Below are positions 3,456-52,790 of a stretch of 64,000 nt of DNA, one piece after another. The stretch comes from Beroe forskalii (Eukaryota > Ctenophora > Nuda > Beroida > Beroidae). The position numbers and the translations under genes were made by a program. The notes below the pieces were generated by a model. That model searched no databases, was not told the origin of the DNA, and was given only the letters and a program-made list of their open reading frames with translations. How positions within the stretch are numbered: the first letter of the stretch is position 1; the number at the start of each line of letters is the position of its first letter. The DNA is taken from positions 141,480-205,479 of the forward strand of contig WFMF01000323.1 of assembly GCA_011033025.1 (NCBI GenBank), given 5' to 3'.

Positions 3456-3825
3456 TTTCCATGCGCAGAAAACGGGCTGGCTGTTCGGAGGGAGTGATCA
3501 TCCCTTAGGTGGGTTGTGATAATGAGCCATTAAATAGCTCGCGTAGGAGGAGTAAGCGGCATGCCACGTCAGCAACGCTCCATTCTGCAGCCGGATAATG
3601 CCACCACTAGCGGGCGTGTGGTGGGGGTGAGCGACGCTTAGTAGCCGTGTAATATAGCAACAGCCATACACTGAATAGGAGGAAATGTGATAAAGCTAAT
3701 GATAATCGCTCCACAGATATATAAACATACATCAGGGAGGGCTGCGCTGCGAGGTCTAATTCTAATCGCCCGTATATAATTTACTACACTTCGTCTCTTG
3801 CTCGTAATGAAGTCGTCTCTACAAA
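3456..3825. other. intergenic, nothing recognised
   Basis: GC is somewhat higher near 3540-3640. No reading frame or repeat could be supported. It may include the 3' untranslated part of the gene ending at 3455, but no clear AATAAA is present. Confidence 0.35.
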
Positions 3826-3829
3826 AGGT

Positions 3830-4085
3830 GAGGAGGTGTGGGTGTATTTTACCTTGTGGGTGTATTTTACCTTGGTGTATTTTACCTTGAGGGTGTATTT
3901 ACCTTGCGGGTTTATTTCACCTTGTGAGCGTATTTTAAATCTTTTGGGTGCATTTTACCTTGCGGGTGTATTTCACCTTGAAGGCGTATTCTACCTTGTG
4001 GGCGTACTTAACGTGGTGGGCGTATTCTACCCTGCGGGCGTATTTCACTTTGTGGGCGTATTTTACATTGCGGGTGTATTTTGTA
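3830..4085. repeat. GGGTGTATTTTACCTTG minisatellite
   Basis: About 13 tandem units of 17-19 bp with core gcgggtgtattttaccttg. Variant units carry gcgtatt in place of tgtattt. Open frames across it on both strands are repeat artefacts. Confidence 0.88.
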
Positions 4086-13896: not shown

Positions 13897-16786
13897 CAGT
13901 CAAATCTGGCCGAAAATGACTCAAAATCGGAACAAATTCTACACCAAGCGATTTTGACTGTTTTCTGTAGTTTTTTGCCCAAAAGGTCGATCTAGCAACT
14001 TTCCGAGACTTTCCGGGGTGGGGAAAGTGCCGAAAAATCGATTTTTAGTTGAGGCACAGCCGACTGACCAGTGAAAATTCGTAATTTGGCCCAGGAAGGT
14101 CGTAGAGACTTCGTTTTAGGCTTAAAAGAAGCGCAATGGCCATGTTTATATACGACTTGTTAATAAATATATGCCCTAAAATGCTCAGGAACAGAGTTAT
14201 GGGCGAAAAACGGTTTTTTGGGCACCCGTGAGACATTGTGGAAGCGATTTTTGTATTTCGGCCCAGGAAGGTCGTAGAGACTTCGTTATAGGCTTAAAAG
14301 AAGCGCAATGGCCATGTTTATATACGACTTGTTAATAAACATGTGCCCCTAAATGCTCAGTAACCGAGTTATGGGCGAAAAACTGATTTTTTAGGCACCC
14401 GCGAGACATTGTGGAAGCGATTTTGTATTTCGGCCCAGGAAGGTCGTAGAGACTTCGTTTTAGGCTTGAAAGAAGTGCAATGGCCATGTTTATATACGAC
14501 TTGTTAATAAAAACATGCCCTAAAATGCTCAGGAACAGAGTTATGGGCGAATAACTGTTTTTGGGCACCCGCGAGACATTGTGAAAGCGATTTTTGTATC
14601 TCGGCCCAGGAAGTCCCAGGAAGTATAAGCAACCATATTTTATTATTATTATTATTATTATTTAAGGTCGTAGAGACTTCGTTTTAGCCTTGAAAGAAGC
14701 GCAATGGCCTTGTTAATATACGACTTGTTAATAAACATATGCCCCAAAATGGTGAGGAACCGAGTTTTGGGCGAAAAACTGATTTTTTGGGCACCCGCGA
14801 GACATTGTGGAAGCGATTTTGTATCTCGGCCCAGGAAGGTCGTAGAGACTTCGTTAAATTAGGCTTAAAAGAAGCGCAATGGCCATGTTTATTTAGGACT
14901 TTTTAATAAACATGTGCCCTAAAATGCTCAGGAACAGAGTTATGGGCGAAAAACTATTTTTTGGGCACTCGCAAGACATTGTGGAAGCGATTTTTGTATC
15001 TTGGCCTATGAAGGTCGTAGAGACTTCGTTTTGGACTTAAAAGAAGTGAAATGGTCTTTGTTTATATACGGCTTGCTAATAATTATATGCCCTAAAATGC
15101 TGAGGAACCGAGTTATGGGCGAAAAACTGTTTTTAGGCACCTGTTTTCGGCCCAGGAAGGTCATAGAAGCTTGATTTTGGACTTGTACGACTTGTGAATA
15201 AACATATGTCCTCAAATGCTCCAGAACAAAGTTGTGGGCGAAACACTGATTTTTTGGTGTTTTGGGCATTTTAAGACAAGGCCAATGCTATTTCTGCATC
15301 TCTGCCCAAGAGGCTTGTAGATTGTAGACCTCAGGTTATTGACAAAAACCCGATGTTTGGTCAATCATGGGGCATGACTCATTAAACATGGCTGAAGCAA
15401 TTTTATATAATCCTAGCTCAGCAAAGCACTATGGACTAAGTTTTAGGTATTGCTACACATACAGGTCGTAGAGCTAGGTGTCATCAATGATTCATTGATG
15501 ATGATTGATGATTCATTGATTCAATGAATCATCATCAATCATCATCTTTACATTAGCCCCTAATAGTCTACACAGTTGCGGTTCTTTTTAAGTTTTAAGC
15601 CCTTCTTGGGGCAAAGCTGTGATACAAAAATTGTGTTTGCCTTAGTAGGGAGCCCCATATCAGTTTCATCAAATCCATACAAGTATGTATATAAACATGG
15701 CCATTGCATTATTTTAATAAGTTTCAATGACCTTCCTAGGCTGAGATACAGCCCAGGAAAATTGCCTCTACTCAGAAGAAAACTAAAATTACATAACTTT
15801 GTTCTAAAGCATTTTAGGACATATCTTTGATAACAAGTAGTATATAATACACACGCCCATTGCGCGTATTTTAAGCACACAATGAAATCTCTACTCAAGA
15901 CTCTTGGGCGAGATACAAAAAATCGCTTCCACAATGTCTCGTGGGTGCCCGAAACATCAGTTTTTTCGCCCATAACACGGTTCCTGAGCATTTAAGGGCA
16001 TATGTTTATTAACAAGTCGTATATAAACATGGCCATTGCGCTTCTTTTAAGCCTAAAACGAAGTCTCTACGACCTTCCTGGGCCGAGATACAAAAATCGC
16101 TTCCACAATGTCTTGCAGGTGCCCAAAAAACAGTTTTTTGCCCATAACTCTGTTCCTGAGCATTTTAGGGCATATGTTTATTAACAAGTCGTATATAAAC
16201 ATGGCCATTGCGCTTCTTTTAAGCTCAAAACGAAGTCTCTACGACCTTCCTGGGCCGAGATACAAAATCGCTTCCACAATCTCACAATGTCTCGCGGGTG
16301 CCCAAAAAATCAGTTTTTCGCCCAAAACTCGGTTCCTCACCATTTTGGGGCATATGTTTATTAACAAGTCGTATATTAACAAGGCCATTGCGCTTCTTTT
16401 AAGGCTAAAACGAAGTCTCTACGACCTTCCTGGACCGAAATACAAAAATCGCTTCCACAATGTCTCGCGGTGCCCAAAAAACATTTTTTCGCTCATAACT
16501 CTGTTCCTGAGCATTTTAGGGCATATGTTTATTAACAAGTCGTATATAAACATGGCCATTGCGCTTCTTTTAAGCCTAAAACGAAGTCTCTATGACCTTC
16601 CTGGGCCAAATTACGAATTTTCACTGGTCAGTCGGTTGCGCCTCAACTAAAATCGATTTTCGGCACTTTCCCCACACCGGAAAGTCCCGGAAAGTTGCTA
16701 GATCGATTTTTTGGGCGAAAAACTATAGAAAACAGTCAAAATCGCTTGGTGTAGAATTTGTTCCTGAAAAAATTAGGATTTGACTG
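13897..16786. mobile_element. 2.9-kb foldback DNA element, TA duplication
   Basis: The left end TA|CAGTCAAATC (13895-13906) is mirrored by GATTTGACTG|TA at 16777-16788. CAGT-type ends flanked by TA are typical of the Tc1/mariner/pogo superfamily. Each arm continues for well over 1 kb. The outer part is unique (caagcgattttgactgtttt). The inner part is a tandem array of about 170-175-bp monomers (aaggtcgtagagacttcg, cgcaatggccatgtttata, ccctaaaatgctcaggaac), running in opposite directions in the two arms. The middle (about 15,250-15,900) has diverged monomers and a short palindrome around 15,480-15,545. No transposase frame is visible; the 180-codon frame at 16108-16650 is produced by the monomers. 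It must be non-autonomous. Confidence 0.85.
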
Positions 16787-20697: not shown

Positions 20698-21805
20698 GGG
20701 GGGCCAACCTCGAAAAACCCCCTTAAACCCCGAAAAATTAAACCCCTATTTGGCTTTTTTCATATCCACTTTGGGGTTTTTGGGGGTTTAAATTAGAAGA
20801 TACTGGGTACCATTTCAAAATAGGGCCAAAATCCTCAACAAAAGGGTACCATTTCAGAAAAGTGTCAAAATTGCTCACCAAAAGTGGTACCATTTTAGAA
20901 AAGGGCAAAAAATCCTGTATAAAATGGTACCATTTCAGAAAAGGCCAAATATCATCATCAAATATGGTACCAAAAATCCTCAACAAACATAGTACCATTT
21001 CAGATGAGGGTCAAAAATCGTCAACAAAAATGGTACCATTTCAGAAAAGGGCCAAAATTCCTCAACAAAAATGGTACCATTTCAGATAAGGGCCAAAAAT
21101 CGTCAACAGATATAATGGTACCATTTCAGATGAGGGTCGAAAATCGTCAACAAAAATGGTACTATTTCAGAAAAGGGCAAAAAATCGTCAACAGATATGG
21201 TACCATTTCAGAAAAGGGCCAAAAATCCTCAACAAATATGGTACCATTTCAGAAAAGGGTTGAAATTCCTCAACAAATATGGTACCATTTCAGAAAAGGC
21301 CCAAAATTCCTCAACAAAAATGGTACCATTTCAGAAAAGGGCCAAAAATCGTCAACAAATATGGTACCATTTCAGATGAGGGCCAAAAATCGTCAACGAA
21401 TATGGTACCATTTCAGAAAAGGGTTGAAATTCCTCAACAAATATGGTACCATTTCAGAAAAGGGCCAAAATTCCTCAACAAAAATGGTACCATTTCAGAA
21501 AAGGGCCAAAAATCGTCAACAAATATGGTACCATTTCAGATGAGGGCCTAAAATCGTCAACAAAAATGGTACTATTTCAGAAAAGGGCAGAAAATCGTCA
21601 ACAGATATGGTACCATTTGAGAGAAAAGCCGAAAAAACACAACTTAAGTAGTACCATTTTGTAAGAAAATCGATATTTTCCAACCGAAAAACGGCTATTT
21701 TCATCAGTTTAGCCTCCTTTTACCCCCATAAACCCCGAAAAATTAAACCCCCATTTGCCAATTTTTATATCCACCCGGGGTTTTTCGAGGTTGGCCCCCC
21801 CCCCC
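20698..21805. mobile_element. 1.1-kb TIR element carrying a minisatellite, 7-bp target duplication
   Basis: TAAAACT occurs at 20691-20697 and again at 21806-21812, directly flanking the element. The ends are inverted: ggggggccaacctcgaaaaa on the left, and tttttcgaggttggccccc plus extra C on the right. Inside each end a second block (taaaccccgaaaaattaaac) occurs in the same direction. The middle is an array of 41-bp units. No transposase is present. The 7-8-bp duplication would fit hAT- or Merlin-like integrases, but this is an inference. Confidence 0.8.
20806..21650 (+). repeat. 41-bp GGTACC minisatellite inside the TIR element
   Basis: About 20 units of tggtaccatttcagaaaagg plus gccaaaaatcgtcaacaaata. 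Variants alternate aaaaggg/tgaggg and cctcaac/cgtcaac, and the order of variants suggests duplication of two- to four-unit blocks. A 41-bp period shifts frame each unit, so open frames up to 179 codons occur in several phases; they are artefacts. Confidence 0.92.
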
Positions 21806-49059: not shown

Positions 49060-50113
49060 TTAATGTTCCATCATCGTATTCCTGTATATATATAAGCTTT
49101 CTTTAATTTTGCGTTTAAACATTTTACTTTCAAACGTTAGTATATCACAATCCTCAAACGTAATTTGGCAGTTTGGATTTGCCGCCAAGTGTTTTCCAAC
49201 TTCGGTCATACCAGTTCCACTTGTCTTCATGTGTTCTTCAAACCGTGTTCGAAGAGCACGACAAGTCTCACCAATATACCGTCGCCCACAACTACAAGTG
49301 ATCCTGTATACCAAATCATGTTTGAGGTGTTTTGGCTGTCTGTCTTTAAAACTGAACTTATGACATAATTTAGAATAACTGTTCAAATAAATTAACTGAC
49401 ATTTCCCCGGTAAATCCTTGCTAATACATTGTTTGGCTTTCGATGAAATGTCGCCAATGTATGGTAACTTAAAATACACCTTAAACTTCTCTGGCCCTTC
49501 GTGTACCAGCTTTTCTGTCGTGTTAACTTTATTAGTTATTTCCTTGTTGATAATACTATACGTAAAATTCTTACTGTATCCATTATTACTTAACATTTCT
49601 ACAATTTTCTCAACTTCGTCATGAAATAGTGTCCACGAGCTACAAATTTTGTACGCTCGATCGACTGAGGTCCTAATTAAACCTAACTTAAACTTAAACG
49701 GTGAAAAACTGAGAAAGTGAGTGAACACACCTGAGTGTGTCGGTTTACGGTATACTGTAATAGATATGTCCTCTGTACTAGAATTACTGTCTTTAATGAT
49801 AAGTAGATCTAAAATCGGCAATTTATCTGACACTTCTTTATCACATGTAAACTTAATACTGGGATGTAAACTGTTTAAATAAGCTAAAAATCTGTCTGCA
49901 TCATCTTCATTATCAAATACGGCTAAAGTATCATCTACATATCTACAAAATACTGTTAAAAAGAATGATTCGTAATTGTTTTGACTAATAAAAGTTATAT
50001 TCAAATAATCGTGTTCCTCACGCCTAATCTTATCTTCTAACAAATGGTTCATAAAAATATCTGCTAAAATAGGTGCAAGTGGTGAGCCCATGGCACAACC
50101 ATCTATCTGTTTA
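49060..50113 (-). CDS. Penelope-like RT (C-terminal) and GIY-YIG endonuclease, left copy
   Basis: Reading from 50113 down: palm motif [17 protein letters not shown], catalytic [20 protein letters not shown] (YVDD), thumb region, and a GIY-YIG domain ([20 protein letters not shown], then RTRFEEHM). In Penelope-like elements the reverse transcriptase copies the RNA template and the endonuclease nicks the target. The frame ends at 49060 about 30 codons early compared with the right copy, because of two extra bases in a tatata run (LYIYRN instead of LYIQEYDD). The 5' side is cut by the insertion at 50,120. Two Cys precede the YIG motif. Confidence 0.85.
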
Positions 50114-50125
50114 TAATATAGGATA

Positions 50126-50291
50126 ATCAAACACCCTTAGGATACGTTTATATGAATTATCACACGAGCGAAGCGAGTGTGATAATTCGAATTATTGCTC
50201 GAGCCGAAGGCGAGTGCAATAATTCCAATTATCACTCGAGCCGAAGGCGAGTGTGATAATTGATATAAACGTATCCTTAGGGTGTTTGATT
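50126..50291. repeat. DNA cloverleaf: 41-bp stem enclosing three hairpins
   Basis: The outer stem aatcaaacacccttaggata..tatcctaagg-type pairs with its complement ending at 50291. Inside are three palindromes in series: aattatcacac..gtgtgataatt, aattattgc..gcaataatt and aattatcac..gtgataatt. Each has a gagc-gaag-cgag type loop. On a single strand this folds into a four-armed cross with nearly complete pairing. Confidence 0.85.
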
Positions 50292-51183
50292 AATCTATTA
50301 TATAACGTGAGAAACGGGCAGATATTTACACTGGTTTTCCAATAAGAAAGCAAATTTAGAAGCCTTTATGGATATAAAAATCCTTTAAACTAGAGCGCCT
50401 GAAATTGAATCTTGAAAATATCAAGCTTCGAAGTGGCCGAGAATTTTAGATTTAGATGGTGAAGAGTGGCTATGTATATTTGAATTTGCCCAAGAAAGTA
50501 TGAATAAAAACGCAAGTCCGGAATATTCATCAACTTTGATCGTATCTTTTTATTCAACAAGGTACTATAAAGTGATTGTCGATTGAAATGTACAACAAAA
50601 TAGAAAGGACACTTCCGTGTAAGTGTGTAACGCCGTAACGGACGCAAATGTTTCGGCAAATTGCGGGCGGTGGCATTTGTTTAAAATGTAAAGATGTAAG
50701 AAGGGAAACATGATTCAAACAAGCGAAATTTCACCAACGACCAACGTGTACAACAAGTATACAAAACACCAAAACAAGAAACCTTAACGCCAAAGCAAGA
50801 GAATAAATTTGTATATGCTCGTGTATCGTTATTTATACAAGTAGTGAGGGTAAGTGGTCCTTGTACTCCTTGTGGCACGTGCGTGCGCGGCTCATATAAC
50901 GACTACTGAGTATACATAAACTCATTAAATCAAAACAAGATAACATGATAATGTATACACTGATGTATTGTAATGGAGTGAGAGCAAGTGGTCTTCAGGT
51001 TTTACTGGCACGTGCGTGCGCGGCTAATATATCGACTAAAGTGGACACACGAAACGAAAACAAGATAACGTAATATGTATACACCGGTGTATCGCAAGGG
51101 AGTGAGAGCATTAACTAAAACTCTAAAAAGTCAGATTTAAATGATTTTACATAGTAGATAAATACTAATCACAAAATTCAAAA

Positions 51184-51301
51184 GTTTCGATTTTTGGGGT
51201 GTGATAATTTTTCAAAGGTGTGATAACTGTTCTTTGAGGGGTGTGATAACTGTACAGTTATCACACACCTGGAAAAAATTATCACACCCCAAAATTTCGA
51301 A
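51184..51301. repeat. GTGTGATAA hairpin
   Basis: The arms tttcgatttttggggtgtga and its complement tcacaccccaaaatttcga enclose a second pair, ggtgtgataactgt / acagttatcacacacc. The gtgtgataa word is shared with the cloverleaf at the other end of the insertion. Confidence 0.8.
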
Positions 51302-51411
51302 AATTTTAAAATCTTATGAAAATTATTAATTGACCCCTAAACCCCATTTTTGAAGCCGTTATATAACAAAAATTATCGGAGCAAGAATTATATAACGATC
51401 GTTATATAATA

Positions 51412-52083
51412 CTTGTTATTAAATATGAAAACGTTATCCTTAAGGCAATGATTCAAGGCTTTTCGAAAAATAGTCCTTGTCATTCCATTCACTACTTGAT
51501 CCTTAACTGCTACTCCCTTAATCCTAGGGTATAACGCATCAATAATAATGTTTATAGTTTCTTCTAGTGGTATGTTAGTGAATAAAGATACTACATCGTA
51601 CGATACAAAATACTTATTGTTCAACTTGGCATCTCTAAGAAACTCAAGACTGAACGAATCCTTACACATATGTTTGGACTGTCTAAGTTCACTAAGCTGA
51701 CGTCCTATCCACTGAGCGAAGGCATGATTGTAACATCCGACCATCGACAGTATCGGTCTCAATGGGAGCCAGTTTTGTGAATCTTAGGCAGACCATACAT
51801 AACAGGAATACTACTTGCACAAAATTTCTTTGTACTCACTTTCTGATAAAATAGATTTAAAATTGCGGTATATAAATGATTGAAATCGGCTTAAATAAGT
51901 AAGTGTTTCTTCCTTTTCTACTTCTACAAACTTGGATCTATCGTTCAAAATAACGTGCATCTTTTCAACATATACAGTTTTATACATAATAACTACGGTC
52001 TGACCTTTATCTGCTTTAACTATAACTAAATTATGTAACTTCATTTTATCTTGAATACTCTTAATAACTGTGTGTACTTCGTC
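51412..52083 (-). pseudogene. Penelope-like RT (N-terminal part), left copy, frameshifted
   Basis: The reverse frame from the palindrome centre reads SDEVHTVIKSIQDK, then LHNLVIVKADKGQTVVIMYK, to 51811. After a frameshift it resumes RPILSMVGCYNHAFAQWIG, then KYFVSYDVVSLFTNIPLEET (RT motif A region) and [19 protein letters not shown], up to the insertion. The ADKG and SYDVVSLFTNIP motifs are typical of Penelope-like RTs. The 5' end of the element is missing. Confidence 0.8.
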
Positions 52084-52084
52084 G

Positions 52085-52790
52085 GAGAAAATGAAGTTAC
52101 ATAATTTAGTTATAGTTAAAGCAGATAAAGGTCAGACCGTAGTTATTATGTATAAAACTGTATATATGAAAAGATACATTTTGAACGATAGATCCAAGTT
52201 TGTAGAAGTAGAAAAGGAAGAAACACTACTATTTGCCGATTTCAATCATTTATATACCGCAATTTTAAATCTATTTTATCAGAAAGTGAGTACAAAGAAA
52301 TTTACCCTAGTGCAAGTAGTATCTCATATAAGTCTGCCTAAGATTCACAAAACTGGCTCCCATTGAGACCGATACTGTCGATGGTCGGATGTTACAATCA
52401 TGCCTTCGCTCAGTAGATAGCTTAGTGAACTTAGACAGTCCAAACATATGTGTAAGGATCTGTTCAGTCTTGAGTTTCTTAGAGATGCCAAGTTGAACAA
52501 TAAGTATTTTGTATCGTACGATGTAGCATCGTTCACTAATGACTAGAAGAAACTATAAACATCATTACATGGTTATACCCTAGATTAAGGATAGCAGTTA
52601 AGGATCAGAATGAATGACAAGGACTATTTTCGAAAGCCTTGAATCATTGCCTTAAGGATAACGTTTATATTTAATAACAAATATTATAAACAGATAGATG
52701 GTTGTGCCATGGGCTCACCACTTGCACCTATTTTAGCAGATATTTTTATGAACCATTTGTTAGAAGATAAGATTAGGCGTGAGAACACGA
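52085..52790 (+). pseudogene. Penelope-like RT (N-terminal part), right copy, several breaks
   Basis: ATG at 52088 opens MKLHNLVIVKADKGQTVVIM and runs to 52366, with small deletions relative to the left copy (for example VYMKRYILND). Stops and shifts follow within the motif A region (about 52,540-52,560). Motif [17 protein letters not shown] is intact at 52,698-52,750, but one missing G near 52,780 (gtgagaacac versus gtgaggaacac) breaks the join to the downstream frame. Confidence 0.78.

Follow-up and report, generated by a model that had tools for sequence, protein, structure and literature searches.

A three-armed DNA cloverleaf at one end of non-autonomous transposons in the ctenophore Beroe forskalii, possibly recognised as folded single-stranded DNA

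In a 64-kb stretch of the Beroe forskalii genome, which as a whole is called the window here, an insertion of about 1.3 kb had been noticed in a preliminary description; it is real, measures 1,293 bp (50117-51409, plus strand), is non-coding with a longest internal ORF of 89 aa, and is missing from a neighbouring copy of its host ORF. The insertion is a non-autonomous transposon, as follows from its repeated identical termini, the existence of empty sites, the lack of a target duplication, and a cloverleaf that is conserved far above the interior. We see about an even chance that a Helitron2-like transposase, a rolling-circle protein of the HUH Rep type, moves such elements in trans, and the structure of the end suggests the recognition of folded single-stranded DNA. 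The features of the element and its surroundings are collected in the table.

Table. Features of the element and its host locus (window coordinates).
Feature	Position	Strand	Evidence or remark
Three-armed cloverleaf: stem with T-T mismatch and three hairpin arms	50126..50291	+	fold z -13.6
Arm 1: AATTATCACACGAGCGAAGCGAGTGTGATAATT, tip GCGAAGC	50155..50187	+	sequence, fold
Arm 2: word GCAATAATT, tip GCC-GAA-GGC	50190..50224	+	sequence, fold
Arm 3: word GTGATAATT, tip GCC-GAA-GGC	50227..50261	+	sequence, fold
Second branched hairpin near right end, five GTGTGATAA half-sites	51187..51300	+	fold z -9.8
Non-coding element TATAGG...TATATAA	50117..51409	+	splits host ORF; absent from neighbouring ORF copy
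Left terminus TATAGGATA, outside the cloverleaf stem	50117..50125	+	identical in 26/26 copies (chosen by cloverleaf)
Right-terminal 22-bp palindrome TTATATAACGATCGTTATATAA	51388..51409	+	fold z -2.7; 4/200 shuffles equally good
TTATATAACG, just inside the cloverleaf	50298..50307	+	inverted copy of right-end word
Central imperfect tandem repeat, two units of ~134 bp, 75% alike	50843..51110	+	unit number varies among copies
Host ORF, 3' part: reverse transcriptase	49060..50116	-	interrupted by element; RVT_1 match below cut-off
Host ORF, 5' part	51410..51762	-	beyond insertion; no Pfam match of its own
Uninterrupted target-site equivalent in neighbouring inverted ORF copy	52681..52688	+	runs through without insert

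The cloverleaf is real and lies far beyond chance. For 50100-50310, the plus strand has a DNA minimum free energy of -61.5 kcal/mol compared with -18.1 +/- 3.2 for shuffled sequences (z -13.6, with none of 200 shuffles as good), and the fold thus bears out the stem enclosing three serial palindromes that had been read from the letters. A stem does exist, but its proposed length of about 41 bp requires weaker outer pairs that lie partly in flanking DNA, while about 27 bp are uninterrupted, with a single T-T mismatch (ATCAAACACCCT-T-AGGATACGTTTATAT). The word GTGTGATAA had been said to recur in a separate hairpin at the opposite end, and this is correct: all eight of its occurrences in the window lie within the element, three in the cloverleaf and five in the hairpin at 51187-51300. 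Folding both strands, as had been advised, gave a strong fold on each (minus strand -59.7, z -13.8, same region) but no strand preference in the computed energy, and with the two energies nearly equal it is the arm tips that carry the argument about the strand. All three arms of the window copy end in C-GAA-G, and below each tip CGAG faces CGAG, which sets G-A opposite A-G. Such tandem G-A/A-G pairs are stable in this context. The GNA triloop can form on the plus strand only, as the complement would give TTC loops and C-T mismatches, and this one-sidedness suggests that it is folded single-stranded DNA that is recognised. Of the two possibilities that the preliminary description had left side by side, folded single-stranded DNA is thus the one that we infer, and a structured RNA is less likely. 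GCGAAGC and GNA loops have been described as extraordinarily stable DNA mini-hairpins (PMC4686876, as cited here in part).

The termini of the element have only TATA in common, and there are no terminal inverted repeats beyond it; on the minus strand the element reads TTATATAA...CCTATA at its termini, and polyA was found at neither the left nor the right end. The inverted repeat that both ends share comprises only 10 bp and lies 181 nt from the left end. As TTATATAACG/CGTTATATAA occurs four times in the window, always at the two ends of the element, TTATATAACG is a possible subterminal inverted repeat. Tandem Repeats Finder did not report the central tandem repeat. The two minus-strand ORFs that flank the insertion (50130-49060 and 51762-51388) can be read together as a single, split reverse-transcriptase gene, of which the 3' part matches RVT_1 with an E-value of 2.6e-6 and 27.7 bits, under the Pfam cut-off of 29.6; judging by its motifs, we take the host ORF to be Penelope-like. 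The window carries two inverted, head-to-head copies of this ORF between 48497 and 54285, 97% alike over 1.6 kb. At the centre of the pair (51982-52153), Rfam gives a MIR2619-type match of 54.8 bits, weak against the cut-off of 113 and probably just the foldback. Several large clusters of tandem or inverted repeats lie elsewhere in the window, at 13929-16764 and 20806-21659.

A 7-bp target duplication had been assumed for the insertion, and this is ruled out by unequal junction variants among the copies, by three empty sites in the genome that join exactly, and by the neighbouring host-ORF copy, which is itself an exactly joined empty site. That TATAATA stands on either side of the window copy is a coincidence, due to the resemblance of the element ends (TATA... 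and ...TATATAA) to the target. The element starts with TATAGG in 26/26 copies and ends with TAA in all 22 copies that have both ends, and it is the flanks that vary: the left flank is not TAA, but TAT or AAA, in 5/22 (one minus copy of the L009 cluster, L011, L020, L023 and L024), and the right flank is not TA in 4/22 (L010, L011, L016 and L022). An A|T junction was found in 17/21 pairs, with A|C, T|G, T|T and T|T in the remainder, and L020 also has T|T. Joined flanks were made for 14 sites, of which eight were submitted to the genome search, and clean empty sites were obtained for three of the eight: L012 (empty in L029), L014 (L030) and L020 (L032-L035 aligned, L036 not aligned). Four further submitted sites gave no empty site among the 40 of 468 candidates that were scored, most of which match one repeat, and for the L019 site the relative L031 has 8 extra nt at the junction, which may represent a deletion on insertion, a footprint or an unrelated indel. 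At L020, the left flank is TAT, the right end is TAA, and the related empty sites read TAT|TATAC, which excludes a TWA duplication of the PIF/Harbinger type. The variant junctions together with the empty sites define the element as TATAGG...TATATAA, inserted through a single exchange point at TAA|TA-like sites, and there is no target duplication at these sites. Head-to-tail junctions were found at eight places in the genome, in 8/8 with a gap of 0 nt where 0-30 nt were permitted; they are not decisive, since circles with joined ends and insertion at an existing end, which restores TAA|TA, would both give them.

The genome-wide search for the cloverleaf that had been suggested, performed on the 216-Mb assembly with its 1,134 contigs, revealed many copies. 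A 182-bp cloverleaf query was found at 100% over its full length in at least 37 places, window included, among the 40 of 464 candidates that were scored. The left-end 19-mer TATAGGATAATCAAACACC has 164 genome matches with at most one mismatch and none for the reversed control. The right-end 25-mer gave 187 strand matches at the same tolerance, an over-count, because this pattern is almost identical to its own complement and some ends were therefore counted twice, once per strand (98 are distinct among the 100 exact places listed). We examined 20 fetched regions (L009-L028) together with the window, which yielded 26 left ends, and 22 of these copies have both ends, with no complete right end in L013, L017, L025 and L028. 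The same two ends in 22/26 copies uphold the notion of structured ends without terminal inverted repeats, and the window copy is therefore not a truncated relative of an element with ordinary ones. The first 180 nt are also identical in 22/26 copies, and the four that differ all belong to the nested L009 cluster; L020 holds a further, degenerate copy.

Sequence conservation is concentrated in the structured parts. Substitution rates were determined for 15 of the 22 two-ended copies, excluding five from the L009 cluster and two over-long ones. The first 184 nt have 0.000 substitutions per site, as compared with 0.087 and 0.100 for the two blocks that follow; the right-hairpin core (-185 to -125, counted from the right end) has 0.029, with 0.12-0.13 on either side of it, and the last 30 nt have 0.004. 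As the cloverleaf had served to select these 15 copies, we counted 122-nt blocks genome-wide, which is free of this selection bias: the cloverleaf core is present exactly in 75 places and within three mismatches in 110, whereas an interior block of the window copy has eight matches within three mismatches, of which the only exact one is itself, with the reservation that this is a single block and misses copies with small insertions or deletions. It thus seems that the interiors of source copies diverged and the fold was kept, which would be expected if an enzyme reads the fold.

The arm tips are not confined to this element. The tip pattern CGAG(G/C)CGNAG(G/C)CGAGTG occurs 1,068 times in the genome and not once in the reversed control, and among the 100 places listed, tips that are at most 120 bp apart lie on the same strand in 28/29 cases and six triplets are spaced by 35-39 bp. 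A second family, about 239 bp long at L028:7896-8134 and with 40 of its 694 candidate places scored, has the same type of arm, and in L009, L017 and L021 elements of the window type are found within pieces of it or abutting them. A third structure (L015, ~3738-3925) has three serial arms with the same type of tip. Both begin with TATACGC after TAT, with boundaries inferred from match ends and single copies, and both fold strongly (z -7.2 for family 2, -7.0 for the L015 structure, -4.3 for the L009 part of family 2), yet neither gives a clean three-armed form. Two arm-tip triplets 1,560 bp apart and in the same order (C156:379750-381402) are perhaps another tandem family, and long GNA-tipped hairpins with another stem sequence (CATATTACACACGAGGGCC...) were seen at L009:819 and, on the minus strand, at L018:8331. 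We aligned nine hand-picked arms, three from family 1 and six from family 2; the first arm of L028, which is degenerate, and those of L015 were not included. The opposed GA/AG is kept in 8/9 arms, 91.9% of the stem cells are paired, cells changed on both sides number 10 as compared with 3.6 in shuffled alignments (0/500 as high), and covariation is 0.254 compared with 0.136 (0/500), a test that is weakened by the relatedness of the arms. Two of the five covariation measures fell within the shuffles, namely pairs changed on both sides (91/500) and further pair types (493/500). The alignment indicates that the stems change partly with compensation. The other hairpin families share the arm grammar and perhaps the machinery.

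The same-strand tip, the partly compensated stem, the absence of a duplication and the end-like target agree with a HUH-type nuclease that acts on single strands. In the mechanism that we propose, a trans-acting Rep-type HUH nuclease from a Helitron2/Helentron-like rolling-circle element would recognise the fold of one strand through GNA-tipped arms bearing GTGTGATAA/GTGCAATAA and would nick at TAA^TA at both ends of the element; nicking would be followed by a joined-end circle or strand, and this joined-end form would enter a target TAA^TA without duplicating it. Read on the minus strand, the cloverleaf is 9 nt away from a 3' end (50117), and the strand that forms the GNA tips is the plus strand. 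A point against such a mechanism is that the C-GNA-G tip is present in only 5/9 of the compared arms. A candidate enzyme type is encoded in the genome, as Helitron_like_N has 20 matches there, several in long ORFs, with 0/14 control genomes positive, whereas Y1_Tnp (PF01797) gave no candidate in the genome and was positive in 5/14 control genomes.

An autonomous element with the same ends, for which the preliminary description had recommended looking, was not found among the end pairs examined and the Rep loci compared. Of the 20 Helitron_like_N places, the 12 that lie on contigs up to C603 were compared with the 100 exact places listed per end, and none was close to any of these; 12 Rep loci contained no arm tip and no element end within +/-1.5 kb. 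The genome has 18 pairs of ends that are 1.85-12.4 kb apart, and the search for an autonomous copy covered six of them, whole or in part, with the other 12, including C201:330146 and C200:201725, set aside; no partner enzyme is encoded in the six. L049 (C525) holds a minisatellite with low-complexity ORFs, L050 (C270) has one 104-aa ORF for which no identity was found, L051 (C282) has no ORF above 69 aa in its unmatched stretch, L019 (C419) and L020 (C399) are either double copies or copies expanded by repeats, and the inner 3 kb of the C288 pair (L052) encode endonuclease-like and reverse-transcriptase-like ORFs that by eye look like a nested LINE. Palindromes joined tail to tail, with L051 and C393 as the two candidate cases, were rejected on a reading of L051, whose overlap is a chance TTC in the flank. 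For two inverted Helitron copies on C802 it was not possible to locate the ends, as the two fetched stretches showed no similarity. Another insert of about 1.95 kb is nested in an element at L028:4915-6864 and is hAT-like, judged by the size of the 8-nt repeat at its edges.

We compared the element with known systems as far as they are described in the cited parts of the respective papers. Folded single-strand ends and insertion without duplication are known from IS200/IS605 and REP-type Y1 elements, which differ in their dependence on a Y1 transposase, as no Y1_Tnp was found in the genome. Helitrons insert without duplication into AT or TT targets and form circles with precisely joined ends (PMC4067079, PMC4778049). 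The element agrees with them in lacking a duplication, but its ends TATAGG...TATATAA are not the canonical 5'-TC and 3'-CTRR termini, A-T insertion is a preference (17/21 A|T) and not a rule, and the Helitron-type hairpin about 11 nt from the 3' end fits only if the minus strand moves. Helraiser resembles it by A-T insertion without duplication, a hairpin 11 nt from the 3' end and precise head-to-tail circles, whereas its 5'-TC/CTAG-3' ends are absent here and the fold is far larger here (PMC4778049). Its hairpin is not strictly required; an exchanged stem kept about 90% of the activity, and a changed loop was about as bad as deletion of the hairpin (PMC4778049). The 5' hairpin of the Fusarium Helitron2, TCAGCC GAA GGCTG, has the C-GAA-G tip of the window arms (PMC5148889). 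FoHeli elements are further similar in having terminal hairpins at both ends (FoHeli1, 2), duplication-free pre-insertion sites, evidence for joined ends and an AT-rich preferred site (TNAT|), but each of their ends has a single short hairpin, their terminal inverted repeat is asymmetric, and their autonomous members encode RepHel (PMC5148889). HINE/DINE-1 elements, including Cg_HINE, are likewise non-coding and duplication-free, with palindromes near both ends, central tandem repeats and a short inverted word near both ends (PMC4067079, PMC7492417). HINEs are non-autonomous Helentrons, and the TT or T-rich target of Helentrons and HINEs differs from the TAA|TA preference here (PMC4067079); their terminal palindrome has 5-10 bp as compared with a three-armed fold of 166 nt (PMC4067079, PMC7492417), and the inverted repeat of Helentron/HINE and Helitron2 has about 11-16 bp as compared with the 10 bp of TTATATAACG, 181 nt from the left end. 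No paper on a transposon that ends in a three-armed cloverleaf was found in the literature by title or abstract opening. The earlier judgement that no standard class matches therefore holds in that the element lacks canonical end motifs and the search gave no partner enzyme, but the anatomy is closest to Helitron2/HINE. As no partner with matching ends was found and the canonical Helitron termini are absent, we do not claim Helitron membership; the closest analogy is that the element would work like a Helitron2-type transposon, as one of which we do not file it. We extend modest credence to the idea that it represents a distinct eukaryotic single-strand DNA transposon system that is not a Helitron, with several families in a single genome that share same-strand, GNA-tipped serial arms as recognition signal, of which the best-defined family has three, and that some enzyme would insert at TAA|TA without duplication.

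Other mechanisms could account for some of these observations. Integration of a circle by a tyrosine or serine recombinase (Crypton- or IS607-like), in which the joined TATAA-TATA recombines with a short matching target, would agree with an element junction that resembles the TAA|TA target and with the perfect tandem junctions, but we consider it unlikely, since, if the exchange were staggered, some variant sites should show letters of the element on the left or letters of the target on the right, and the eight variant copies (five left, four right, L011 both) all fit a single exchange point. Cut-and-paste transposition by a DDE enzyme without duplication would suit the repeated subterminal words at both ends, to which a transposase could bind, and has a precedent in Spy (PHIS superfamily), which inserts duplication-free into AT-rich sites (PMC4482050, cited in part). 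In this source, Spy ends in terminal inverted repeats and its target is AAATTT; the present element has no terminal inverted repeats beyond TATA and a TAA|TA target in place of AAA|TTT, and the same-strand arm tips would be left unexplained, which makes this mechanism quite unlikely. We also give a low probability to the idea that hairpin-templated repair or gene conversion, and not selection on recognition, maintains the palindromes of the arms, a process that may act alongside rolling-circle mobilisation. Self-templated correction can create compensated changes in palindromes, and the compensated changes would thus be obtainable. However, such correction does not fit the unpairable opposed GA/AG kept in 8/9 arms, the tips that keep one strand (28/29, among the 100 places listed) or the exact cloverleaf common to copies with diverged interiors.

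The inverted terminal repeats of adeno-associated virus form a branched terminal hairpin with GAGC-type words, and the cloverleaf recalls them. It is nevertheless very doubtful that the element is a relic of a parvovirus-like or other single-stranded DNA replicon with the cloverleaf as terminal-hairpin replication origin, as there are many copies with a defined duplication-free insertion at a preferred site, no coding capacity, and no matches for two arm patterns in viral contigs. Least probable of all, and by our estimate very improbable, is a structured RNA or retroposon whose cloverleaf works as RNA: the hairpins are strong, and weak miRNA-type and sRNA-type Rfam matches lie near 51174-51300, but all four Rfam matches are far below their gathering scores and were taken as chance, there is no polyA, no duplication and no insert ORF above 89 aa, both ends are precise, and the tip corresponds to a DNA triloop that has been described as stable (PMC4686876, in the part cited).

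In summary, single-strand mobilisation by a trans-acting Rep protein is the best explanation that we can offer for the element, which also demonstrates how a chance match of end and target can mimic a 7-bp duplication. The hairpin-mutant test that we found in the literature concerns Helraiser only (PMC4778049, in the part cited). If the folded strand is the recognition signal, a single ctenophore genome would supply natural variants of a DNA structure by the hundreds, in which the tips are conserved and the stems compensated in part, and if this is true, structure-based recognition in rolling-circle transposition would become directly testable.
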